From Labilibaculum euxinicum (GTDB lineage: Bacteria; Bacteroidota; Bacteroidia; Bacteroidales; Marinifilaceae): 64,000 nt of DNA. Below, piece by piece: positions 6,909 through 18,901 of this stretch (positions within the stretch are counted from its first letter, which is position 1; each line of letters begins with the position of its first letter). The DNA lies in assembly GCF_009795715.1 (NCBI RefSeq), contig NZ_WTCR01000013.1, positions 1 to 64,000 on the forward strand, written 5' to 3'. Both the position numbers and the translations under genes were made by a program. The notes below the pieces were generated by a model. It searched no databases, was not told where the DNA came from, and saw only the letters and a program-made list of their open reading frames with translations.

Positions 6909-7868
6909 TTAATAGATTGCTTTTGCGATATCACGAACACAATCGGATGCCATAAGTGTATAAAAGTGTAAGGAAGGAACCCCGTGCTGAATCAATTCTT
7001 TTCCTTGCTGAATTCCCCACTCTATACCAACTTGCTTTACCTCATCATTGGTTTTGCATTTGCGAACTTCGGCAGCTAATGCTTCAGGAATATCGGTTTT
7101 GAAAATCTGCGGAAGCACTGTCAACTGGCTTAAAGCAGATATTGGCTTGATACCTGGAACAACAGGAACTGTAATACCGGCATCGCGTACTTTCTTTACA
7201 AAATCAAAGAATTTCTGATTATCGAAGAACATTTGGGTAACGATGTATTCAGCTCCGGCATCCACTTTCTTTTTCAACCAATAAATATCGGAATCAATAT
7301 TTGGAGCTTCTTCGTGTTTTTCAGGATATCCGGCCGTACCGAAAGAAAACGGAGTTGCAAAAGGCTCTACATGTGTGCCATCCAAAAACCCGCCTTTGTT
7401 AATTTCATTCACCTGATTGATTAAATCGATCGCATATTTGTGCTCTCCTTCACTGGAAATAAAAGCATGGCGGGAAGATGAATCACCACGCAGTAGTAGT
7501 AAATCGTAAATACCCAGAAAATTTAAATCCAAAAGTGCATTTTCAGTCTCTTCCGGGGTAAATCCGCTGCAAATTACATGAGGAACAACAGTTATTTTGT
7601 ATTCATTTTTTATTGCTGCCGCCACTGCTACCGTCCCCGGGCGCTTTCGGGTAATTTTTTTTTCAATTAAACCACTTTCCGATTCTGTGAAAACCACCTC
7701 GTCGCGATGTGCTGTGATATTAATGTACTTAGGATCGAATTCCTTTAGCTTATCTATCGTGTTAAAAACTTTGTATATGCTGTTTCCCCTCAAAGGAGGC
7801 AACAATTCAAATGAGAAATGTGTGGTTTTATTCTCAATTGCCTGATTTAATAGTTCGATTACTTTCAT
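6909..7868 (-). CDS. metF: 5,10-methylenetetrahydrofolate reductase
   Basis: This 319-residue TIM-barrel flavoprotein reduces methylene-THF to 5-methyl-THF, the methyl donor for MetH encoded just upstream. Family signatures are THFSFELLPPLRG near the N-terminus (the catalytic Glu lies in SFELLPP), NITAHRDE, HVICSGFTPEE, LLLLRGDS and the flavin/folate segment VTQMFFDNQKFFDFV followed by VPVVPGIKPI. Length is normal. It is the last gene of the methionine operon, 78 bases after metH, with a short GATTTGAGAAATAAG repeat in the gap. Confidence 0.95.
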   Translation of the reverse strand: MKVIELLNQAIENKTTHFSFELLPPLRGNSIYKVFNTIDKLKEFDPKYINITAHRDEVVFTESESGLIEKKITRKRPGTVAVAAAIKNEYKITVVPHVICSGFTPEETENALLDLNFLGIYDLLLLRGDSSSRHAFISSEGEHKYAIDLINQVNEINKGGFLDGTHVEPFATPFSFGTAGYPEKHEEAPNIDSDIYWLKKKVDAGAEYIVTQMFFDNQKFFDFVKKVRDAGITVPVVPGIKPISALSQLTVLPQIFKTDIPEALAAEVRKCKTNDEVKQVGIEWGIQQGKELIQHGVPSLHFYTLMASDCVRDIAKAIY

Positions 7869-7946: not shown

Positions 7947-10900
7947 TTATAATATAGCTGTTAACAGCTTCTTTGCTTTCTCTTCGGATATTCCTTTTCG
8001 GGAGGCATAATCCTTTAATTGATCTTCCTTAATTTTATCGATAGAGAAATACAATGCCTCCGGATGAGCGAAAATCAATCCACTTACCGAAGCTGCCGGA
8101 TACATGGCAAAACTTTCGGTTAATGTTGCTCCTATGTTTTTTTCAACATCCATAAAATCCCAAAGTACCTGTTTTTCGGAATGCTCGGGCAATGACGGAT
8201 ATCCAAAAGCAGGACGAATTCCCTGATAATGTTCACGAAGCATCATCTCTATGTCAAGATCTTCGTCGGCAGCATATCCCCAATCTTCTTTACGGATTTT
8301 TTCGTGCAGTAATTCGGTGAAAGCTTCCGCCAAACGATCAGCCAAAATCTTAATCATGATGCTGTTGTAATCATCATGATCTTCGGCAAATTTCTCCAGT
8401 ATTTCTTCAATACCCAAACCTGCTGTTACCACAAAGGCGCCCACATAATCGATTCTTTCCGATTCGATTGGAGCCACAAAATCGCTCAAACACAAACTGC
8501 TCAGTCCTTTTTTAAACTTCTCCTGCTGACGAATGCCGCAGAATCTGGTAATTTCATTTGTTCTGTCTTCATCGGTATACAATACGATATCATCGCCAAC
8601 ACTATTGGCAGGAAACAATCCGTAAACCGCACTTGCTTCAATCAATCCTTCACGCTCAATTACATCCAACATGTAATTGGCATCATCGAAAAGAATTTTA
8701 GCTTGTTCCTTAAAATCCAGATCTTCCATAATTTCAGGATACATACACTTTAGCTCCCAGGCTACAAAAAAGAAAGTCCAGTCGATGTATTTACGGATTT
8801 CGCCAATCGAAAAGTTATTCAGAACCTGCAATCCTGTTTTGTTTGGCTGGTAAATAGGAGCGGTTTTCCAATCAATTTGCTCTCTGTTTTTTCGGGCCTC
8901 ATCCAAAGTATAGTATTCAACCGGCTTTTTATTTTCATGATCTTCACGCACAATTTGATACTCATCACGGGTTTTTGCCAAAAAATCTTTTCTTTTATTC
9001 TTATCGCACAACTGTTTAAAAATTCCCACCGATTTAGAAGCATCTATAACGTGAACCACACCATTCTCATAATTTGGTTCAATTTTAACCGCAGTATGCA
9101 ATTCCGAAGTGGTTGCACCGCCTACTACCAAAGGAATATCCAAACCTTGCCGCTTCATTTCTTCAGCAACAAAACACATTTCTTCCAAGGAAGGGGTTAT
9201 CAGCCCGCTTAAACCAATTGCATCCACATTCTCTCGTATGGCAACTTCTATAATCTTTGAGCTGGGAACCATAACGCCCAAATCAATCACCTCGAAATTG
9301 TTACATCCTAAAACTACGCCAACAATATTTTTCCCAATATCGTGTACATCACCTTTAACGGTCGCCATTACTATTTTACCGGCATTTTTCGCATCGGTCA
9401 AACTATTTTTCTCTTCCTCGATAAAAGGTTGAAGATAAGCAACAGCCTTTTTCATTACCCTTGCTGATTTTACCACCTGAGGCAAAAACATTTTCCCTTC
9501 GCCAAACAAATTGCCCACAATGTTCATTCCATCCATCAAAGGTTGTTCAATCACATCCAATGCACGAGGCAACAACTGTCTGGCTTCTTCAGAATCCTGT
9601 TCAATATAATCGGTGATTCCTTTTACCAGAGAATAAGAAAGTCTTTCAAAACAAGGTTTTTCTCTCCATGCATCGGCTTTCACCTGAACTTTCCCTACCG
9701 ATTTCAATCCTTCGGCCAATTCAATGAGTATCTCGGTAGCCTCAGGCTTGCGATTCAAAACCACATCTTCTACTTTTTGTAAAAGTTCTGGTTCTATTTC
9801 ATCGTAAATCTGTAACATTCCCGGATTTACAATTCCCATATCCAAGCCTTCTTTTATGGCATGATACAAGAAAACGGAATGCATTGCTTCCCGAACTGTA
9901 TTGTTTCCCCGGAAAGAAAAAGACAGATTGCTGATTCCTCCACTAATTTTAGCATGTGGCAAATTGGCTTTGATCCACTTTACGGTTTTGATATAATCAA
10001 CCGCATAGTTGTTGTGTTCTTCGATTCCTGTGGCAATTGCCAATACATTGGGATCAAAAATGATATCCTCGGCCGGAAAGCCAACCGTTTCGGTTAATAT
10101 TTTATAGGCTCTTGCGCAAATTTCAGTTCTTCGCTGGAAAGTATCGGCCTGTCCTTTTTCATCAAAAGCCATTACAACAGCAGCAGCTCCGTATCTTTTT
10201 ACTTTGGTTGCATGATCGATAAATTCTTCTTCACCTTCTTTTAATGAAATTGAATTGACCACACATTTTCCCTGCACACATTTCAATCCTGTTTCCAACA
10301 CCGACCATTTTGATGAGTCGATCATGATGGGAACACGGGAAATTTCCGGTTCAGACACCAATAACTTTAAGAAAATATCCATTTCCTTTTCAGCATCCAA
10401 CATGGCATCATCCATGTTTACATCGATGATTTGTGCTCCGTTTTCAACTTGATTGCGAGCTATCGAAAGTGCTTCTTCGTATTTTTTCTCACGAATTAAA
10501 CGGGCAAATTTTATAGAACCTGCCACATTAGTCCGTTCTCCTACATTCACAAAATTGGTGAGCGAATTAATCCGCAGTAATTCCAATCCACTCAAACGGG
10601 TTTCCTTTTCTACAACCGGAATTTCTCTGGGAGCAGCACCTTTAACCGCATCAGCTAATATTTTAATGTGTTCTGGTCGGGTTCCACAGCAACCTCCAAC
10701 AATATTTATCTTCTTATTATCCAATAATTCTTTTAAATCACCCAACATGGTTTGAGGAGTTTCGTCGTACTCTCCCAATTCATTTGGCAAACCTGCATTC
10801 GGATAAACACTCACATAAACCGGAAGCAGCGTATCCAATTGTTGAATATACGGCACCAAATCTTTAGCTCCAAAAGCACAATTCAATCCAATACTCAGCA

Positions 10901-11618
10901 ATCGGTCACATTTTACTGAAGTAACAAAAGCCTCCAGGGTTTGTCCCGAAAGAGTTCGTCCACTGTTGTCAGTAATGGTTCCCGAAATCATGATTGGTGT
11001 ATCCAATCCTCTTTCTTCCAGCAATAAATCAGCCGCATAAATCGCAGCCTTGGCATTTAAAGTATCAAAAATTGTTTCTATCAAAAGGGCGTCTACTCCA
11101 CCATCCAGTAATCCCTTTATCTGTTCGGTGTAAATTCTCACCAAATCATCAAAACCTACATCCCGATATCCAGGATCTTCAACCTTTGGCGACATGGAAG
11201 TCGTTTTGTTGGTTGGGCCTATTGCTCCCGCTACCCAACGTGGAGTATTTGGATCAATAACATTCATTTCATCAACAGCAGCACGGGCATTTTTCACTGC
11301 TTCAAAATTCAGTTCATACGCCAATTCTTCCAATTGATAATCGGCCAATGATATTGCATTGGCATTAAATGTATTGGTCTCAATAATATTGGCTCCGGCT
11401 TCCAAAAACTTTTGATGAATCTCCTTAATGATTTCAGGCTGAGTCAAAGTCAGCAAGTCGTTGTGTCCTTTCTGATCACTTGAAAAATCTGCAAAACGGG
11501 TTCCACGAAAATCTGCTTCAGTCAACTTGTGCGCCTGAATCATTGTTCCCATGGCACCGTCTAAAACAAGAATTTGCTTCTGTAATGCCTCTTTAATAGA
11601 TGTAAATTTCTGTTCCAT
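7947..11618 (-). CDS. metH: Cobalamin-dependent methionine synthase
   Basis: This 1223-residue four-module enzyme methylates homocysteine using methyl-cobalamin. The modules are a homocysteine barrel (about 1-325, zinc Cys in GLNCAFG and GGCCGT), a pterin-binding barrel (about 355-620, [11 protein letters not shown]), a B12 cap and Rossmann module (about 650-890, with the axial His motif [11 protein letters not shown]) and an AdoMet reactivation domain (about 900-1223, [12 protein letters not shown]). All are intact, so full-length MetH is expected. Its ATG lies one base after the lysC stop, showing tight coupling. Activity requires B12, but no cobalamin riboswitch is seen; control seems to come from the SAM riboswitch at the operon head. 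Confidence 0.97.
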
Positions 11619-11619
11619 A

Positions 11620-12879
11620 TTAATTTGCGACTGTTAGATAGATTGCAGTATTACTATTCTTTTGTTCTACCAAAACATGATGTTTGTTCTGTATTTCTTC
11701 GATTGTCGCCGGCGTATAATGCCGAACGGTGATCAATTCCAAATCCTCACTCAATTCAACCTCATACTTTTCTTCCAATTCTGCCACCAAATCCTGCATA
11801 TTTCTGGCTGAGCTATTGGCACAGAATGCAAAGCTAACCGCAGTGTTCTGAGTAAAATTAAGCTTTATTCTATACTTTGTAACCAGTGTAAAAATAAAAA
11901 CAAGGTCTTTTTCACCAATAAAAGAAAAATTCAGCGGTTTTAAAGTCACTAACAACTGTCTTTTTTTTACAATGTAATTTGGCAGCAATGGTTGTGGCTG
12001 ATCTCCTTTTGTAATTAAAGTTCCTTTTTGCGATGGATCGATAAATGATTTCACCCACAAAGGAATCTTCTTTGCCTGCAACGGCTTTATGGTTTTCGGA
12101 TGAATTACCCTGGCTCCGTAATAAGAAAGCTCTATTGCTTCATGATAAGGAATTAAATCCAATTTGGTTGTCACATCAAAATAATCAGGATCTGCATTCA
12201 AAATTCCCAATACATCTTTCCAGATGATCATTTTATCAGCGCCAAGCAAATGAGCTAAAATTGCCGCTGTGTAGTCTGATCCTTCTCTTCCTAATGAGGT
12301 GGTGAAACCATTCGGATCTCTGGCAATAAAACCCTGCGTAATGTACAATGCAGCCGGATTATCTGGAAATACGGCATTGGCTTTTTCTTTCGACGAATCC
12401 CAAAGAATGTTGGCATCTACGTAATTATCATCGGAATCCAAACAGGTTCGAACATCAATCCACTTATTATTTTGTCCGATATGATTTAAATAAGCAGCTA
12501 CAATTGTTGTTGATAAAAGTTCTCCAAAACCAATCACCTGATCGTATTCAAAATTGAACTGATCGGATGATGGTTTTGAAATTTTGGTTTTCAGCTCGAT
12601 GAAAAGAGCGTTTATTTCCGAACTGACCTTCGCCGGAACTTCTTCGAATAAATCATCGATCACTGAAGTGTGGTTTTCCTTCAGCAGATCAAAAAGTTCC
12701 AAGGCCTTATCATTTCCGGAAAAATAAGCATCTACAATTTCTTCCAGCAAGTTGGTTGTTGTACCAATTGCCGAAATCACTACTGTAAGCGGACGCTTTA
12801 CTTTGCCAATAATTTGACAAATATTTTTAATAGCAGCAGCATCTTTTACCGATGCACCGCCAAATTTGTATATGATCAT
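11620..12879 (-). CDS. lysC: Aspartate kinase (methionine-operon copy)
   Basis: The 419-residue monofunctional aspartokinase makes aspartyl phosphate for homoserine. Visible motifs are KFGGASV at residues 5-11, the catalytic loop [16 protein letters not shown] and [12 protein letters not shown]. Two ACT-like segments follow (about 300-419). It is not fused to homoserine dehydrogenase; hom is the separate gene 74 bases upstream. It ends one base before the metH start. A full-length paralogue lies at 17291-18547 outside the riboswitch-controlled operon, which suggests this copy is dedicated to methionine and the other to lysine/threonine (inference). Confidence 0.92.
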
Positions 12880-12953: not shown

Positions 12954-14144
12954 TTACTCATCACCCAAATAAGCCAGGAAAATATCTTTCCCTGCAATTT
13001 GCTTACGGATATTTATCAGTTTGGAAAGATTCAATGTTCCAATTACATAGTTAAAATCTTTTCCAGTCAGCGATTCCGATATCTCCTTGAAATCAAATAA
13101 TTCCAAATCGTTTTTATCTGTGTACCTCAAATAAATCTCAACATCCATATCGTTGGTGTATTCCAAACCACCATAATATTTCAGCTTTTTATATTCGTAT
13201 TTGTAATTGTAGGCCAAAGCTGTTATATCCGATAAAACTGCCGATCCGGTTGGATGCGCACCAGCTCCTTTTCCATACATAAACTGGTTGTCGTAGAAAT
13301 TCCCCTGAATTAAAACGCCGTTGTAATGACTCTCAACCGTATAAGCATGCTCTGTTGGTCTCACAAATTTTGGAGCCACAAACAAATTCACCCTATTGCC
13401 GTTTACTTTGGTTACTTTTCCCAGCAATCGAATTTTATATCCCTTTTGCGATGCCAACTCAATATCTTTTGGTGAAAGATTCGCGATTCCCGAATTAAAA
13501 ACCTCATCGGGATGCACAAACAAACCAAATCCGTGAACGGTAAGGATAATCAGTTTGTATAAAGTATCGAACCCACCAACATCCGATGTAGGATCACTTT
13601 CAGCAAATCCTAAATCCTGTGCTTCTTTTAATGCCAGATGGTAATCCAGATTTTCATTGAAAATCTTTGTCAGGATATAATTAGATGATCCGTTCAGGAT
13701 TCCACTTACCGATTGCAATAAATCATTGTCGTAGTATTCTTCCAAATTTCTGATAATAGGAATACTTCCACATGCCGAAGCTTCATACAAAAATGAAACC
13801 TTGTATTGCCACTGCAATTGAATCAGTTCCTCGATATGATAGGCCAGCATTTTTTTATTGGCAGAAACCACATGCTTTCCATTTTGCATAGCTGCCTTTA
13901 CAATCTGGTAGGCCACATCTGCATCGTCAATTAATTCTGCAACAACATTAATTTCCGGATCATTCAAAATATCTTCCGGATTTAATGTAAGTACCTCAGG
14001 ATCGATGTCCCGTTGCTTAGCTGCATCTTTCACACAAACTTTCACGATAGATGCATCCAAACCTTTGCTGTTTTTTAGAACGTGAGCCAATCCGGAACCT
14101 ACAACACCGTAGCCAAAAACGCCTATTTTTAATTTATTACTCAT
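12954..14144 (-). CDS. hom: Homoserine dehydrogenase
   Basis: This 396-residue enzyme reduces aspartate semialdehyde to homoserine. It starts with the NAD(P) motif GVFGYGVVGSGLAHVL. It continues with VSANKKMLA, EASACGSIPIIRNLEEY, the catalytic region LNGSSNYILTKI, EAQDLGFAESDPTSDVGG with the substrate-binding DVGG, and GAGAHPTGSAVLSD. About 60 residues follow the catalytic domain, too short for a standard C-terminal ACT domain, so threonine feedback may be weak or absent. Its ATG overlaps the metX stop by four bases (ATGA), so the two are translationally coupled. Confidence 0.95.
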   Translation of the reverse strand: MSNKLKIGVFGYGVVGSGLAHVLKNSKGLDASIVKVCVKDAAKQRDIDPEVLTLNPEDILNDPEINVVAELIDDADVAYQIVKAAMQNGKHVVSANKKMLAYHIEELIQLQWQYKVSFLYEASACGSIPIIRNLEEYYDNDLLQSVSGILNGSSNYILTKIFNENLDYHLALKEAQDLGFAESDPTSDVGGFDTLYKLIILTVHGFGLFVHPDEVFNSGIANLSPKDIELASQKGYKIRLLGKVTKVNGNRVNLFVAPKFVRPTEHAYTVESHYNGVLIQGNFYDNQFMYGKGAGAHPTGSAVLSDITALAYNYKYEYKKLKYYGGLEYTNDMDVEIYLRYTDKNDLELFDFKEISESLTGKDFNYVIGTLNLSKLINIRKQIAGKDIFLAYLGDE

Positions 14145-15169
14145 TTGATTTTGCTATCGTTTAAGAATGTTTTTAATACTTCAGTTAATTGTTCCTGTTC
14201 CAAAAGGAAGCCATCGTGCCCGTAAATTGAATTGATTTCCAGGAATTCTGCATTTGGAATATTGTCAGCAATGAATCGTTGCTCCTGAATTGGGAAAATC
14301 TGATCGGAATTTACACCAATCACCAATGTTCTTGATTTGATTTCGTTCAAAGCAGAAACCAAACCATTTCTTCCACGGCCAATATCATGACTATCCATTA
14401 TTTTTGAAAGATGCCAATACGAATAAGCATTAAATCTGCGCGCCAGCTTCTCACCCTGATACCTCTGATAAGAACTTGCCCGGTAATGATCTGTTTTGCC
14501 TTCTTCATTTTCCTGCTGAGAATGATCGTAAGTTGAATAAGTTCTGTAACTGAGCAGAGCAATCGATCTTGCCACGCGCATGCCATTCAAACCTGCCTCA
14601 TCATTCGATTCTTTCCAGGTAGGATCAACTTCAATTGCCATTCTTTGCGATTCGTTGAAAGCAATTCCCCAAGGAGAATGTTTTGCATTGGAGGCCAATA
14701 TCACCAAATTGTCCAACTTCCCATTCAACAGATAAGCCCACTCCATGGCTTGCATGCCGCCAAGTGAGCTTCCAATCATCATATGAATACGTTCTATTTT
14801 CAAATGCTTTCTCAAAATTTCATGTGCCCCAACCAAATCCCGAACCGTTAGTTGTGGAAAATCATGATAATATGCCTGTCCGTTGTCCGGATTTTTTGAA
14901 AGAGGTCCGGTTGAACCGTAGCAGGAAGCAAGAGTATTGTCGCAAACTATGAAGTAATCTTTTGGATTGAAAAAATCATTTTCTCCAAATAATCCTTCCC
15001 ACCAATCGAAAACATCCGAATTAGCAGTAAGAGCATGACAAACCCAAATCACATTATTCCTTTGCGGATCGTATTCCCCATAGGTGTGATAGGTAAGCTC
15101 CAACTCTTTCAGACACTCACCTGATTCAAGTTGTAAACCTTCTTTATGGATGTAACATTCTGGATTCAC
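14141..15169 (-). CDS. metX: Homoserine O-acetyltransferase
   Basis: This alpha/beta hydrolase of 342 residues acetylates homoserine. The nucleophile elbow GSSLGGMQAMEW is clear, and the Asp (NSDQIFP) and His (YGHDGFLLE) of the triad are near the C-terminus. The start is GTG at 15169; the frame is closed two codons upstream, so no ATG alternative exists. The gene follows metY by 133 bases that hold a strong hairpin and overlaps hom by four bases. Acetyl rather than succinyl chemistry fits the MetX fold and the MetY partner. Confidence 0.94.
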   Translation of the reverse strand: MNPECYIHKEGLQLESGECLKELELTYHTYGEYDPQRNNVIWVCHALTANSDVFDWWEGLFGENDFFNPKDYFIVCDNTLASCYGSTGPLSKNPDNGQAYYHDFPQLTVRDLVGAHEILRKHLKIERIHMMIGSSLGGMQAMEWAYLLNGKLDNLVILASNAKHSPWGIAFNESQRMAIEVDPTWKESNDEAGLNGMRVARSIALLSYRTYSTYDHSQQENEEGKTDHYRASSYQRYQGEKLARRFNAYSYWHLSKIMDSHDIGRGRNGLVSALNEIKSRTLVIGVNSDQIFPIQEQRFIADNIPNAEFLEINSIYGHDGFLLEQEQLTEVLKTFLNDSKIK

Positions 15170-15302: not shown

Positions 15303-16955
<1,653 letters not shown>

Positions 16956-16975
16956 ATGCGTTAAATCATACGCAT
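16956..16975 (-). terminator. Putative attenuator hairpin overlapping the leader ORF end
   Basis: ATGCGT, which is the Met34-Arg35 codons of the leader ORF, pairs perfectly with ACGCAT, which spans the last base of the UAA stop and the next five bases. The loop is eight bases and a U-rich run follows (UCUUUCU, then seven U at 16930-16936). A competing pairing, GAATGC with GCATTC, uses the same 3' arm. A ribosome stalled on the Met codons would block the hairpin. The stem is short, so terminator strength is uncertain. Confidence 0.5.
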
Positions 16976-17074
16976 CATTTGCTGCATTCGCATCATCAAC
17001 ATGGTTGAAGATTGCAACGTGAAGTTTTGCTCCTGATGAGCCTGCTGATTGTAATTAATTTGAGTCTTCTTCAT
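16961..17074 (-). CDS. Methionine-rich leader peptide of the met operon
   Basis: A 37-codon ORF starts seven bases after the 3' strand of riboswitch helix P1 and ends about 340 bases before metY. It begins MKKTQINYNQQ and ends MLMMRMQQMMRMI, so seven of its last 13 codons are AUG, eight Met in all. Met run, short length, position in the leader of a methionine operon and a hairpin built from its last codons fit a ribosome-mediated attenuation leader. No homologue is known to me. Chance Met enrichment from CAT-rich DNA is the alternative. Confidence 0.65.
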   Translation of the reverse strand: MKKTQINYNQQAHQEQNFTLQSSTMLMMRMQQMMRMI

Positions 17075-17081
17075 AATCTGT

Positions 17082-17191
17082 TAATTTATATTCACCAAAA
17101 ATTTGGTCAGGATTTGACACCTTTCAGCTATGGAAGCCGCGGTTGTCAGAAGGTCAACGAGCCTGTTCTCTTACTTCTTCTGTATAAATTA
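17082..17191 (-). ncRNA. SAM-I (S-box) riboswitch aptamer
   Basis: On the minus strand every helix of a SAM-I aptamer can be paired. P1 is TAATTTATA with TATAAATTA (9 bp). P2 is CAGAAG with CTTCTG. The upper P2 is GAG with CTC, with a GUUGA kink-turn-like bulge. P3 is CGGCU-UCCAU-AGCUG. P4 is GGT..CA with TG-ACC. The P2 loop CAGG matches CCTG after P4, giving the diagnostic pseudoknot. Conserved core strings GGCTCGTTGACC and ACAACC are present, as is AGGTGTCAAATCC. It lies about 40 bases after the promoter. SAM binding should repress the downstream metY-metX-hom-lysC-metH-metF operon. Confidence 0.87.
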
Positions 17192-17230
17192 TAGATATTC
17201 TCCTGAGAGATTTACCTTATATAACGGGAA

Positions 17231-17261
17231 CAAAGATAGGGAAGTTTTTGAATTCACCAAA
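17231..17261 (-). promoter_or_regulatory. Promoter of the methionine operon
   Basis: TTTG (17258-17261), a 19-base spacer and TATCTTTG (17231-17238) on the minus strand match the Bacteroidota consensus perfectly. Transcription would start near 17224, some 30 bases before riboswitch P1. It is only 30 bases past the stop of the second aspartokinase gene, with no terminator between, so readthrough from that gene is also possible. Confidence 0.85.
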
Positions 17262-17290
17262 CATTCCCGACCTCTTTGTCTTTTATTTTT

Positions 17291-18547
17291 TTACAACAGC
17301 ACAAATTGTGCAGTATCTCTGCTTCGCTGTTCCAGCAGTATTTCCCGGCCATTGGTCATTCTTTCAACGGCTTCAGAATTGTGATGGCGAATCGTAATCA
17401 ACTCCAGATTCTCATTGTATCTCACTTCAAATTTGGTAGAAATTTCTTCAATTAAATTTTTCAACCTTCTATCTGAATTATCAACACATACCGAAAAACT
17501 AATTGCCGAATTCTGAATTAAATTTACTTTCACCTGATGTTTTGCGAAAATGGAAAACAACGAACTTAAATTTTCTTCCAGTATGAAAGAAAAATCACTT
17601 GGTCGTATCGAAATCAGCACCTGATCTTGTTTACGAATATAAACAGGAATCAACTGATCCTGCTTTTTAGAAGCTGTACTAATTAAAGTTCCTGACTCGT
17701 TCAGACTAAGAAACGAACGCACCTGCAAAGGAATTTTCTTTTTCTTAATTGGCTGTATGGTTTTGGGATGAATTACTTTAGCGCCGTAAAAAGCAAGTTC
17801 GATAGCTTCCTGATATGATATACGCTCTAATTTCTGCGCATCGGGCAGCCATTTTGGATCTGCATTCATAATTCCAGGAACATCTTTCCAAATGGCCAAT
17901 TTATCCACATCAAGGATATAAGATAAAATTGCAGCGGTATAATCGGAGCCTTCCCGTCCTAAAGTTGTGGTTTGATTGGTTTTAGTTCCACCCAAAAATC
18001 CTTGGGTTACGTATACAAATGTGTTGGTAAAACCAAAAGCCTGAGGCACCAATCTCTGAGAAAGTTCCCAATCAATCCGTCCTTCTTTATAAGTATCATC
18101 CGTTTTTAAACAAGTACGGATATCCACCCACTTATTTGGCGTACCGCTTAAACGAAGGTATTCAGATACAATTGTTGTAGAAATCAACTCTCCAAAACAC
18201 ACAATTTGATCGTAATCAAATTCGTAACTTAAGGATGGCGATTTTTGCAGATAAGCCCGCAACTGCCCGAAAAGAGATTCTATTTTCGAAAAAACAGCAT
18301 CATCCTTTTTGGAAAACAATTCATTTATGATCTTTGTATGGTATGTTTGCAATGCATCTACTTTAGATTCAATCCCATCCTTTTTAGCTGCAAAAGCATC
18401 AACGATCTCTTCCAAAGCATTGGTTGTTTTGCCCATTGCCGACAATACAATAATCATTTCCTCTCTGTAGGATTGTACAATTTTCACAAAATTCCGTACA
18501 CCATCAGCACTATTTACCGAAGCCCCGCCAAATTTAAATATGTTCAT
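17291..18547 (-). CDS. lysC: Aspartate kinase (second copy)
   Basis: This 418-residue aspartokinase has the same layout as the copy at 11620-12879: KFGGASV near the N-terminus, [41 protein letters not shown], then degenerate ACT-like segments. I start at the ATG at 18547; an in-frame TTG just before (18550) adds one residue. The two copies are clearly homologous but diverged along their length, so the duplication is old. This one lies upstream of the riboswitch and has its own leader region, so it probably serves lysine/threonine supply or housekeeping flux (inference). Confidence 0.9.
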   Translation of the reverse strand: MNIFKFGGASVNSADGVRNFVKIVQSYREEMIIVLSAMGKTTNALEEIVDAFAAKKDGIESKVDALQTYHTKIINELFSKKDDAVFSKIESLFGQLRAYLQKSPSLSYEFDYDQIVCFGELISTTIVSEYLRLSGTPNKWVDIRTCLKTDDTYKEGRIDWELSQRLVPQAFGFTNTFVYVTQGFLGGTKTNQTTTLGREGSDYTAAILSYILDVDKLAIWKDVPGIMNADPKWLPDAQKLERISYQEAIELAFYGAKVIHPKTIQPIKKKKIPLQVRSFLSLNESGTLISTASKKQDQLIPVYIRKQDQVLISIRPSDFSFILEENLSSLFSIFAKHQVKVNLIQNSAISFSVCVDNSDRRLKNLIEEISTKFEVRYNENLELITIRHHNSEAVERMTNGREILLEQRSRDTAQFVLL

Positions 18548-18901
18548 CAAAAAAATGTTAGATAATTCTTACTAAAAGGTTATTTAAACCCGCTTTCAAA
18601 ATAAAAATTGAAGTTACAAAATATTGTTTCAGCATTACAAAGTTTGTGAAATTTTAAGATCATTCTGTAATTCATTTCGCACTTTTTAATCGCAAAAAAG
18701 AAAAAAACGCGGTTGAAAACAAAAACCTGTTTAATGCCATTAAAACAACAATTTTCCTTTCACTTATTACATACCTAATATACCAAGGCTTCACACCTTA
18801 AAATTAATTACCGTAAACGTTTGAAATAAGTGTTTCGGCGTTTCACAAAAAAGCATAACTTTATGCCACCAAATGAATGTAAACCAAAAAGCCTTAAAAA
18901 A
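18548..18901. other. Divergent intergenic region (aspartokinase / fbp)
   Basis: This AT-rich region has start signals for both flanking genes. A TAACTTTA near 18855-18862 on the plus strand resembles a -7 box for fbp. On the minus strand a 22-codon Phe-rich frame is present but resembles T-run noise. No riboswitch or terminator was recognised. Confidence 0.4.

Follow-up and report, generated by a model that had tools for sequence, protein, structure and literature searches.

A Met/Cys-codon leader ORF behind the SAM-I aptamer of metY operons in Bacteroidia: a candidate dual-input 5' leader

Attenuators of the trp/his type combine a leader ORF rich in codons for the product of the pathway with mutually exclusive RNA segments and an intrinsic terminator upstream of the structural gene. 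Actinobacterial leader ORFs of the polycysteine type are reportedly the subject of work by Canestrari from 2020. According to published reports, such ORFs carry Cys runs near the stop codon, possess no conserved terminator and have been proposed to act through Rho (PMC1262725), while the metL leader peptide upstream of metNIQ in S. lividans has the mixed tail RCMCRRMCAF, an unclear terminator and a leaderless transcript (PMC8079986). In the Salmonella mgtA/mgtL leader, Mg2+-responsive structures are joined to a proline-rich uORF whose elongation matters, with a Rho-dependent stop (PMC11552253; PMC6386406), and in speF/orf34 a leader ORF controls Rho (PMC6386406). Published work further mentions a Cys-codon uORF ahead of cysS in Rhodobacterales, strong indications that leader peptides attenuate amino-acid operons in Flavobacterium psychrophilum, leader sORFs in B. 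thetaiotaomicron and S-boxes in metagenome fragments of Bacteroidetes/Chlorobi. Leader-peptide control in Bacteroidia is little documented in the literature searched. No description of a SAM-I aptamer followed by a Met/Cys leader ORF was found in the open PMC literature searched, which was covered mostly as titles and beginnings of abstracts.

Here, such an arrangement was analyzed in a window of 64,000 nt, the whole stretch of Labilibaculum euxinicum DNA under study, and compared with SAM-I sites across the class Bacteroidia. The arrangement is best read as a dual-input 5' leader that would respond both to SAM and to the charging of Met- or Cys-tRNA, a reading to which we give a probability of roughly 0.6.

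Architecture of the locus

The features that make up the locus, in the direction of transcription, are as follows.

17231..17261, minus strand: Bacteroidetes-type promoter, TTTG (17261-17258), 19 nt, TATCTTTG (17238-17231); motif by sequence
17083..17190, minus strand: SAM-I riboswitch aptamer, Rfam RF00162
17083..17090, minus strand: 3' strand of P1, UAUAAAUU, complementary to AAUUUAUA at 17190-17183
16961..17074, minus strand: leader ORF of 37 codons plus stop with a Met-rich tail, from sequence; conserved in family and class
15303..16622, minus strand: metY, O-acetylhomoserine sulfhydrylase, first gene of the operon; PF01053 and TIGR01326 above cut-off
14141..15169, minus strand: metX-like alpha/beta hydrolase, PF00561; homoserine acetyltransferase, or metX, is a name by context only
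12954..14144, minus strand: hom, homoserine dehydrogenase; PF00742, PF03447
11620..12879, minus strand: aspartokinase; PF00696, and TIGR00657 above cut-off
7947..11618, minus strand: metH, B12-dependent methionine synthase; five Pfam domains
6909..7868, minus strand: metF-like methylenetetrahydrofolate reductase, named from its translation

An earlier note, made from this DNA alone, had placed a SAM-I aptamer at 17082-17191 and had recommended a run of the Rfam SAM covariance model; that model scores 70.8 bits (E 1.5e-14) at 17083-17190 of the minus strand, the gathering cut-off being 44.4, which bears the assignment out. It is the sole Rfam match at the gathering threshold within the 64 kb window, where no T-box was matched. 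The promoter that the same note had located directly ahead of the aptamer is present in the listed form, and we take it to be one from its fit to the Bacteroidetes consensus. Of 216 SAM-I sites, 165 have a TAnnTTTG box no more than 85 nt 5' of the aptamer, and 12 have one in an 85-nt window further up, so that aptamer and leader ORF should share one transcript. Some SAM-I matches elsewhere in the class are much longer than the model, 172-194 nt against 108 positions (for example G498:C5:72666-72859, G486:C82:32852-33023 and G686:C198:4834-5005), suggesting insertions in stems.

The leader begins with an ATG located 8 nt behind the Rfam end of the aptamer, and Met occupies seven of its last 13 codons (MLMMRMQQMMRMI), in agreement with what had been described; the peptide matches no NCBIfam family. 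The 3' strand of P1 is situated 9-16 nt upstream of the start codon. From this position it is proposed that the strand may double as the initiation region of the leader ORF.

Behind the leader, the genes follow in the order metY-metX-hom-aspK-metH-metF. The six-gene methionine operon proposed earlier is upheld by family models for metY, hom, aspartokinase and metH; the metX product is identified just as an alpha/beta hydrolase, and the metF-like name of 6909..7868 is presumed from its translation. The nearest named relatives of metY in the collection searched are from Labilibaculum sp. (94%), Marinifilum breve (92%) and Ancylomarina euxinus (90%), the own species possibly being excluded, and on this basis the host probably belongs to the Marinifilaceae. 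The window contains two genes of the aspartokinase family, one (11620-12879) belonging to the operon and the other (17291-18550) immediately preceding the leader in the same orientation.

Distribution and coding character of the leader ORF

The survey comprised 217 SAM-I sites of the class Bacteroidia, a non-random set to which relatives and the order contributed 91 sites, a group of 80 named metY loci 56, and the class 70. Within the first subset, which represents part of the matches listed, 31 sites were taken automatically and 60 by score or as left-over relatives, and it too is non-random. The metY subset came from the best 80 of 591 relatives, of which 56 possess SAM-I and 24 do not, and the class subset (n = 70) joins 30 top-scoring loci with 40 picked at about one per family. 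An ORF was counted if it began with ATG 4-20 nt behind the aptamer and had 14-70 codons, and its tail was called M/C-rich with at least four Met/Cys among the last 12 residues; expectations were obtained from dinucleotide shuffles. Downstream gene groups were assigned by a script on short protein motifs, the Pfam check of the HcyBio type (homocysteine biosynthesis) applying to one locus only (L005, PF01837), and at least one site in the group termed "other" (L043) looks metY-like. The counts for each group, together with two control aptamers, are listed below.

metY: ORF 89/101 (shuffles 14.2); M/C-rich tail 59/101 (shuffles 0.10)
HcyBio type: ORF 10/10; M/C-rich tail 9/10
metH: ORF 4/60 (shuffles 8.0); M/C-rich tail 0/60
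MetB/MGL type: ORF 2/16; M/C-rich tail 0/16
Aspartokinase: ORF 4/8; M/C-rich tail 1/8
MetX: ORF 2/5; M/C-rich tail 0/5
Three more small groups, two sites each: none
Other, without gene group: ORF 6/11; M/C-rich tail 3/11
TPP aptamers (control): ORF 5/30; M/C-rich tail 0/30
Cobalamin aptamers (control): ORF 3/30; M/C-rich tail 0/30

The conserved Met-rich ORF which, it had been suggested, should be sought behind the aptamer in relatives was therefore found at metY sites, with tails rich in Met or Cys at 59 of the 101. Three pairs of sites are identical over the aptamer and 300 nt (L001/L020, L012/L093 and L016/L092), and counting each once leaves the metY figures at 86/98 for the ORF and 56/98 for the tail. 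Among the 12 metY sites without an ORF 4-20 nt behind the aptamer, two (L133 and L288) carry an M/C-rich ORF just outside that range; a further 30 of the 101 have an ORF whose tail contains fewer than four Met/Cys, loci of Sphingobacterium and Algoriphagus among them. At metH, the ORF count falls below that of the shuffles. A chance ORF behind an ordinary SAM-I riboswitch would account for short ATG ORFs as such, which the shuffles yield at 14.2 of 101 metY sites, but not for M/C-rich tails, expected at 0.10 sites, and is hardly credible.

The leaders of metY and HcyBio type form 61 clusters at 50% identity; in 35 of these the tail contains four or more Met/Cys. Within the last 13 codons, ATG occurs 107 times in frame and 7 and 5 times in the other two frames. 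The corresponding counts of TGT/TGC are 154, 116 and 17, the second owing part of its size to ATG codons with C or T behind them, which yield TGY after a shift of one base. Relative to the head of the peptide, the tail is enriched 14-fold in Met, 9-fold in Cys and 2.4-fold in Arg, while the heads differ among clusters. In the aligned family of the window, gaps in the ORF are multiples of three, save in the outlier L007. The earlier note had held that equal rates of synonymous and non-synonymous change would speak against its idea; synonymous change proved to be the higher, with pN/pS of 0.49 for the leader ORF in ten sequences without L007, 0.31 in the last 12 columns, and 0.55 overall when L007 is included. 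These results bear on the view that the ORF is untranslated and that a conserved RNA structure gives rise to the AUG and UGC repeats as a side effect. In its favor, codons of the tail take part in local hairpins of the predicted folds, but the strong frame bias of ATG, the differing heads joined to tails of like composition, pN/pS below 1 and the near-fixed distance of the start codon make it very improbable. The comparison shows a conserved, predicted coding leader with a tail of Met/Cys codons, tied to metY and HcyBio operons.

When an ORF was allowed to start anywhere within 260 nt, the start fell 6-14 nt behind the aptamer for 68 of 71 M/C-rich ORFs. Owing to this spacing, a ribosome would have to initiate in a region that includes the 3' strand of P1. 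A Shine-Dalgarno-like motif precedes the leader start at one of 68 loci, and the 20 nt upstream consist of 51% A.

Regarding the amino acid, Met is ahead in the tails of 36 of the 68 metY and HcyBio-type sites with M/C-rich tails, Cys is ahead in 31 and the two are equal in one. Tails in the order to which the window belongs are mainly Met-rich (MMRMQRMMRMI, MRMRCMR, MPLMPMCMR), and loci of Mucilaginibacter, Pedobacter, Pontibacter, Hymenobacter and Chryseolinea have Cys-rich tails with a Met or two (CICMCCCC, CMCCC, RMCMCCCCC, RMCCCCACCC). The genes served put sulfur into homocysteine or reduce sulfite, which would suit the sensing of either amino acid. The dual input first suggested, SAM with Met-tRNA, therefore stands in part: metY sites across the class repeat the ORF, its M/C-rich end and its adjacency to the aptamer, all of which the metH copies read do not show, but Met alone is too narrow, since Cys takes its place in many lineages. 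An arrest peptide, in which the nascent chain, perhaps together with SAM or Met, stalls the ribosome, would be expected to conserve the order of its residues. Some groups do share short endings, for example MRCMR and MPLMPMCMR, though MRCMR may equally reflect RNA pairing of AUGCG repeats; among lineages the order varies while the Met/Cys content is kept, and this explanation is considered improbable.

Alternative pairings and loci where the modules come apart

Three short segments around and behind the stop codon of the leader provide candidate alternative pairings in the RNA.

16970..16976, minus strand: segment A, GAUGCGU, codons of Met34-Arg35; pairs with B
16955..16961, minus strand: segment B, ACGCAUU, its first base being the third of the stop codon; can pair with A or C
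16916..16922, minus strand: segment C, GGUGCGU, its first base lying 39 nt past the end of the stop codon; can pair with B

The window's family, analyzed in 16 sequences, conserves all three, and the predicted A:B and B:C pairings are mutually exclusive. The A:B hairpin has a predicted energy of -7.1 kcal/mol in 14 of the 16, the window included, -6.7 in L009 and a weakened -4.1 in L007. B:C, extended by an inner stem (16951-16948/16930-16927), belongs to the segment's minimum-energy fold in every one of the 16, at -11.7 to -14.8 kcal/mol and -12.1 in the window. In the 16 sequences, 97.3% of cells are paired for A:B, with no covariation, and 96.6% for B:C, where changes are one-sided only. 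Two-sided covariation was found in neither helix, and the columns hardly vary, so that the pattern represents conservation and is not proof of structure. Folded alone, 16900-17080 is no more stable than shuffles (z -0.63). A consistent downstream partner for segment C was not found in the window's family; a segment D pairing with C was considered and dropped because the folds differ between sequences. Furthermore, a covariance model of A-B-C, searched under strict filters in 344 genomes of the order, returned its own site and two weak matches only. The structure consequently seems to evolve rapidly behind a codon tail that is retained in its position, and the A-B-C element looks lineage-specific.

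The hairpin that the earlier note had built from the Met34-Arg35 codons and the bases after the stop is retained as the pairing GAUGCGU/ACGCAUU; its role as a terminator with the following U-run is not. As an intrinsic terminator, A:B with UCUUUCU fails the terminator scan, and the competing B:C occupies the minimum-energy fold. The scan of the window detected no intrinsic terminator in 16600-17300. Moreover, our own scan (a stem of at least six pairs, three of them G-C, and a T-rich tail) was positive at one of 68 M/C-leader loci, L022 of the same genus, and negative at 67. The stop step in the window is consequently probably Rho-dependent or non-canonical. A Rho-type base composition was tried as a signature and rejected: the C/G ratio after the stop codon is 1.49 (60 loci) compared with 1.02 after TPP and cobalamin aptamers (60 loci), but the same excess of C over G, 1.51, occurs upstream of the SAM aptamer and so is not specific.

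At certain loci the modules occur separately. Among the named metY loci, an M/C-rich upstream ORF is present at 4 of 24 without SAM-I and 37 of 56 with SAM-I, and on the reverse strand at 2 of 80; no SAM-I was matched at those four SAM-less loci even at E up to 5. Of the SAM-less loci scanned at the level of the order, 2 of 15 have such an ORF. At the metY locus of Thermophagus xiamenensis (L094), a Met leader ends in TGMMMGRMSMA, and SAM-I was found neither at this locus nor in the genome. Its B and C after the leader share the core of those in the window (GACGCAUC, CCGGUGCGUC). A ribosome footprint of about 12 nt was assumed for the folds: with the stretch removed that a ribosome stalled on the first Met of the tail would cover, a long B:C stem is predicted (-28.7), and with the RNA removed up to the stop region, an imperfect C hairpin whose 3' arm ends at six to seven T. 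In these predicted folds, the Thermophagus locus displays the textbook order of an attenuator and supports a view of the window's A-B-C as its relative.

The second SAM-I site of the window's own genome (L002; contig C11, 158971-159074, minus strand) lies before a nitrite/sulfite reductase gene. Here a 27-codon Cys ORF (CCCCM) starts 149 nt behind the aptamer and is followed by a strong intrinsic terminator with ten T, and L073 is similar. An antiterminator at this site was sought in simulated folds with a stalled ribosome, which keep the terminator and hence show no switch there. The same genome has nine matches to cobalamin riboswitches, four on contig C2 and three on C3. Elsewhere, the ORF behind SAM-I at L065 has 44 codons, the last seven of them for Cys, and precedes a PBP-domain (binding-protein) gene, and SAM-I at L008 is followed by a leader ending MLCMRMCMRMC, ahead of an NhaC-type antiporter gene that might, as a guess, encode a methionine transporter. 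No more than 550 nt upstream of metY at L106, a locus without SAM-I, an ORF ending SMCMCCMYMCM is followed by a ATGATGATGCGTATGTGTTGC stretch, possibly representing tandem leaders.

Separate modules would be expected if two independent controls stood in series, the aptamer operating a switch of its own and an ordinary Met/Cys attenuator following without any gating of the leader by the aptamer. M/C-rich ORFs without SAM-I, at the named metY and order-level loci counted above, favor this main rival, as do SAM-I without an M/C-rich ORF at metH and the distant Cys ORF of the second SAM-I site. Against it, the spacing of 6-14 nt at 68 of 71 ORFs leaves little room for a separate expression platform, and we regard it as less likely than the dual-input leader, which is the reading followed below.

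Proposed mechanism and comparison with described systems

In the dual-input leader, transcription would start just upstream of the SAM-I aptamer, with the leader ORF next downstream. Binding of SAM would close P1, which would then cover the A-rich initiation region and reduce translation of the leader; this gating is suggested by the spacing of aptamer and ORF. When SAM is low, the leader ORF would be translated and the ribosome would report the charging of Met-tRNA, or of Cys-tRNA in other lineages. A ribosome held at hungry Met codons would cover A, so that B could pair with C and transcription would continue. With a free-running ribosome, or with no translation, A:B would form or B would be masked, leading to an early stop, perhaps via Rho. 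Full expression of the operon would thus require both low SAM and a shortage of the amino acid. A broader proposal, put forward more tentatively, is that SAM-I in Bacteroidia may gate a sensor ORF and not an enzyme gene: SAM would set the start and Met- or Cys-tRNA the finish, the two inputs being multiplied before metY, HcyBio or related sulfur operons, while lineages would have exchanged Met for Cys, or the reverse, as the amino acid sensed and would have kept the gate.

If this reading is true, many metY operons of Bacteroidia would carry a natural two-input RNA device that joins a metabolite aptamer to a sensor of tRNA charging and separates two competing demands on methionine, protein synthesis and methylation. 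The way in which these bacteria stop transcription in 5' leaders would also become directly testable.

In comparison with SAM-I (S-box) riboswitches of RF00162, the locus agrees in having an aptamer above the Rfam cut-off and a methionine operon downstream; it differs in that the adjacent ORF is a Met/Cys-codon leader and not an enzyme gene, with no intrinsic terminator found behind it. It shares with trp/his-type attenuators a short ORF rich in pathway codons, ending in codons for the product. The stop lies beside conserved segments whose predicted pairings would exclude each other, though in columns that hardly vary. Unlike them, it adds a metabolite aptamer, its Met and Cys tails interchange among lineages, and 16600-17300 holds no intrinsic terminator. 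Polycysteine leaders likewise have Cys runs near the stop and no conserved terminator, but the accessible text on them mentions no SAM aptamer. The mixed Met/Cys tail recurs in metL of S. lividans, which differs in serving a transporter operon from a leaderless transcript and for which, in the portion of the paper available, a SAM aptamer is likewise not mentioned. Nearest in logic is mgtA/mgtL, where a ligand-responsive structure and a regulatory uORF also stand in one leader; in the present case the ligand would be SAM, the codons are those of Met and Cys, and the arrangement occurs at many metY sites of Bacteroidia. The arrangement is a combination of two known devices, recurrent and specific to particular genes.
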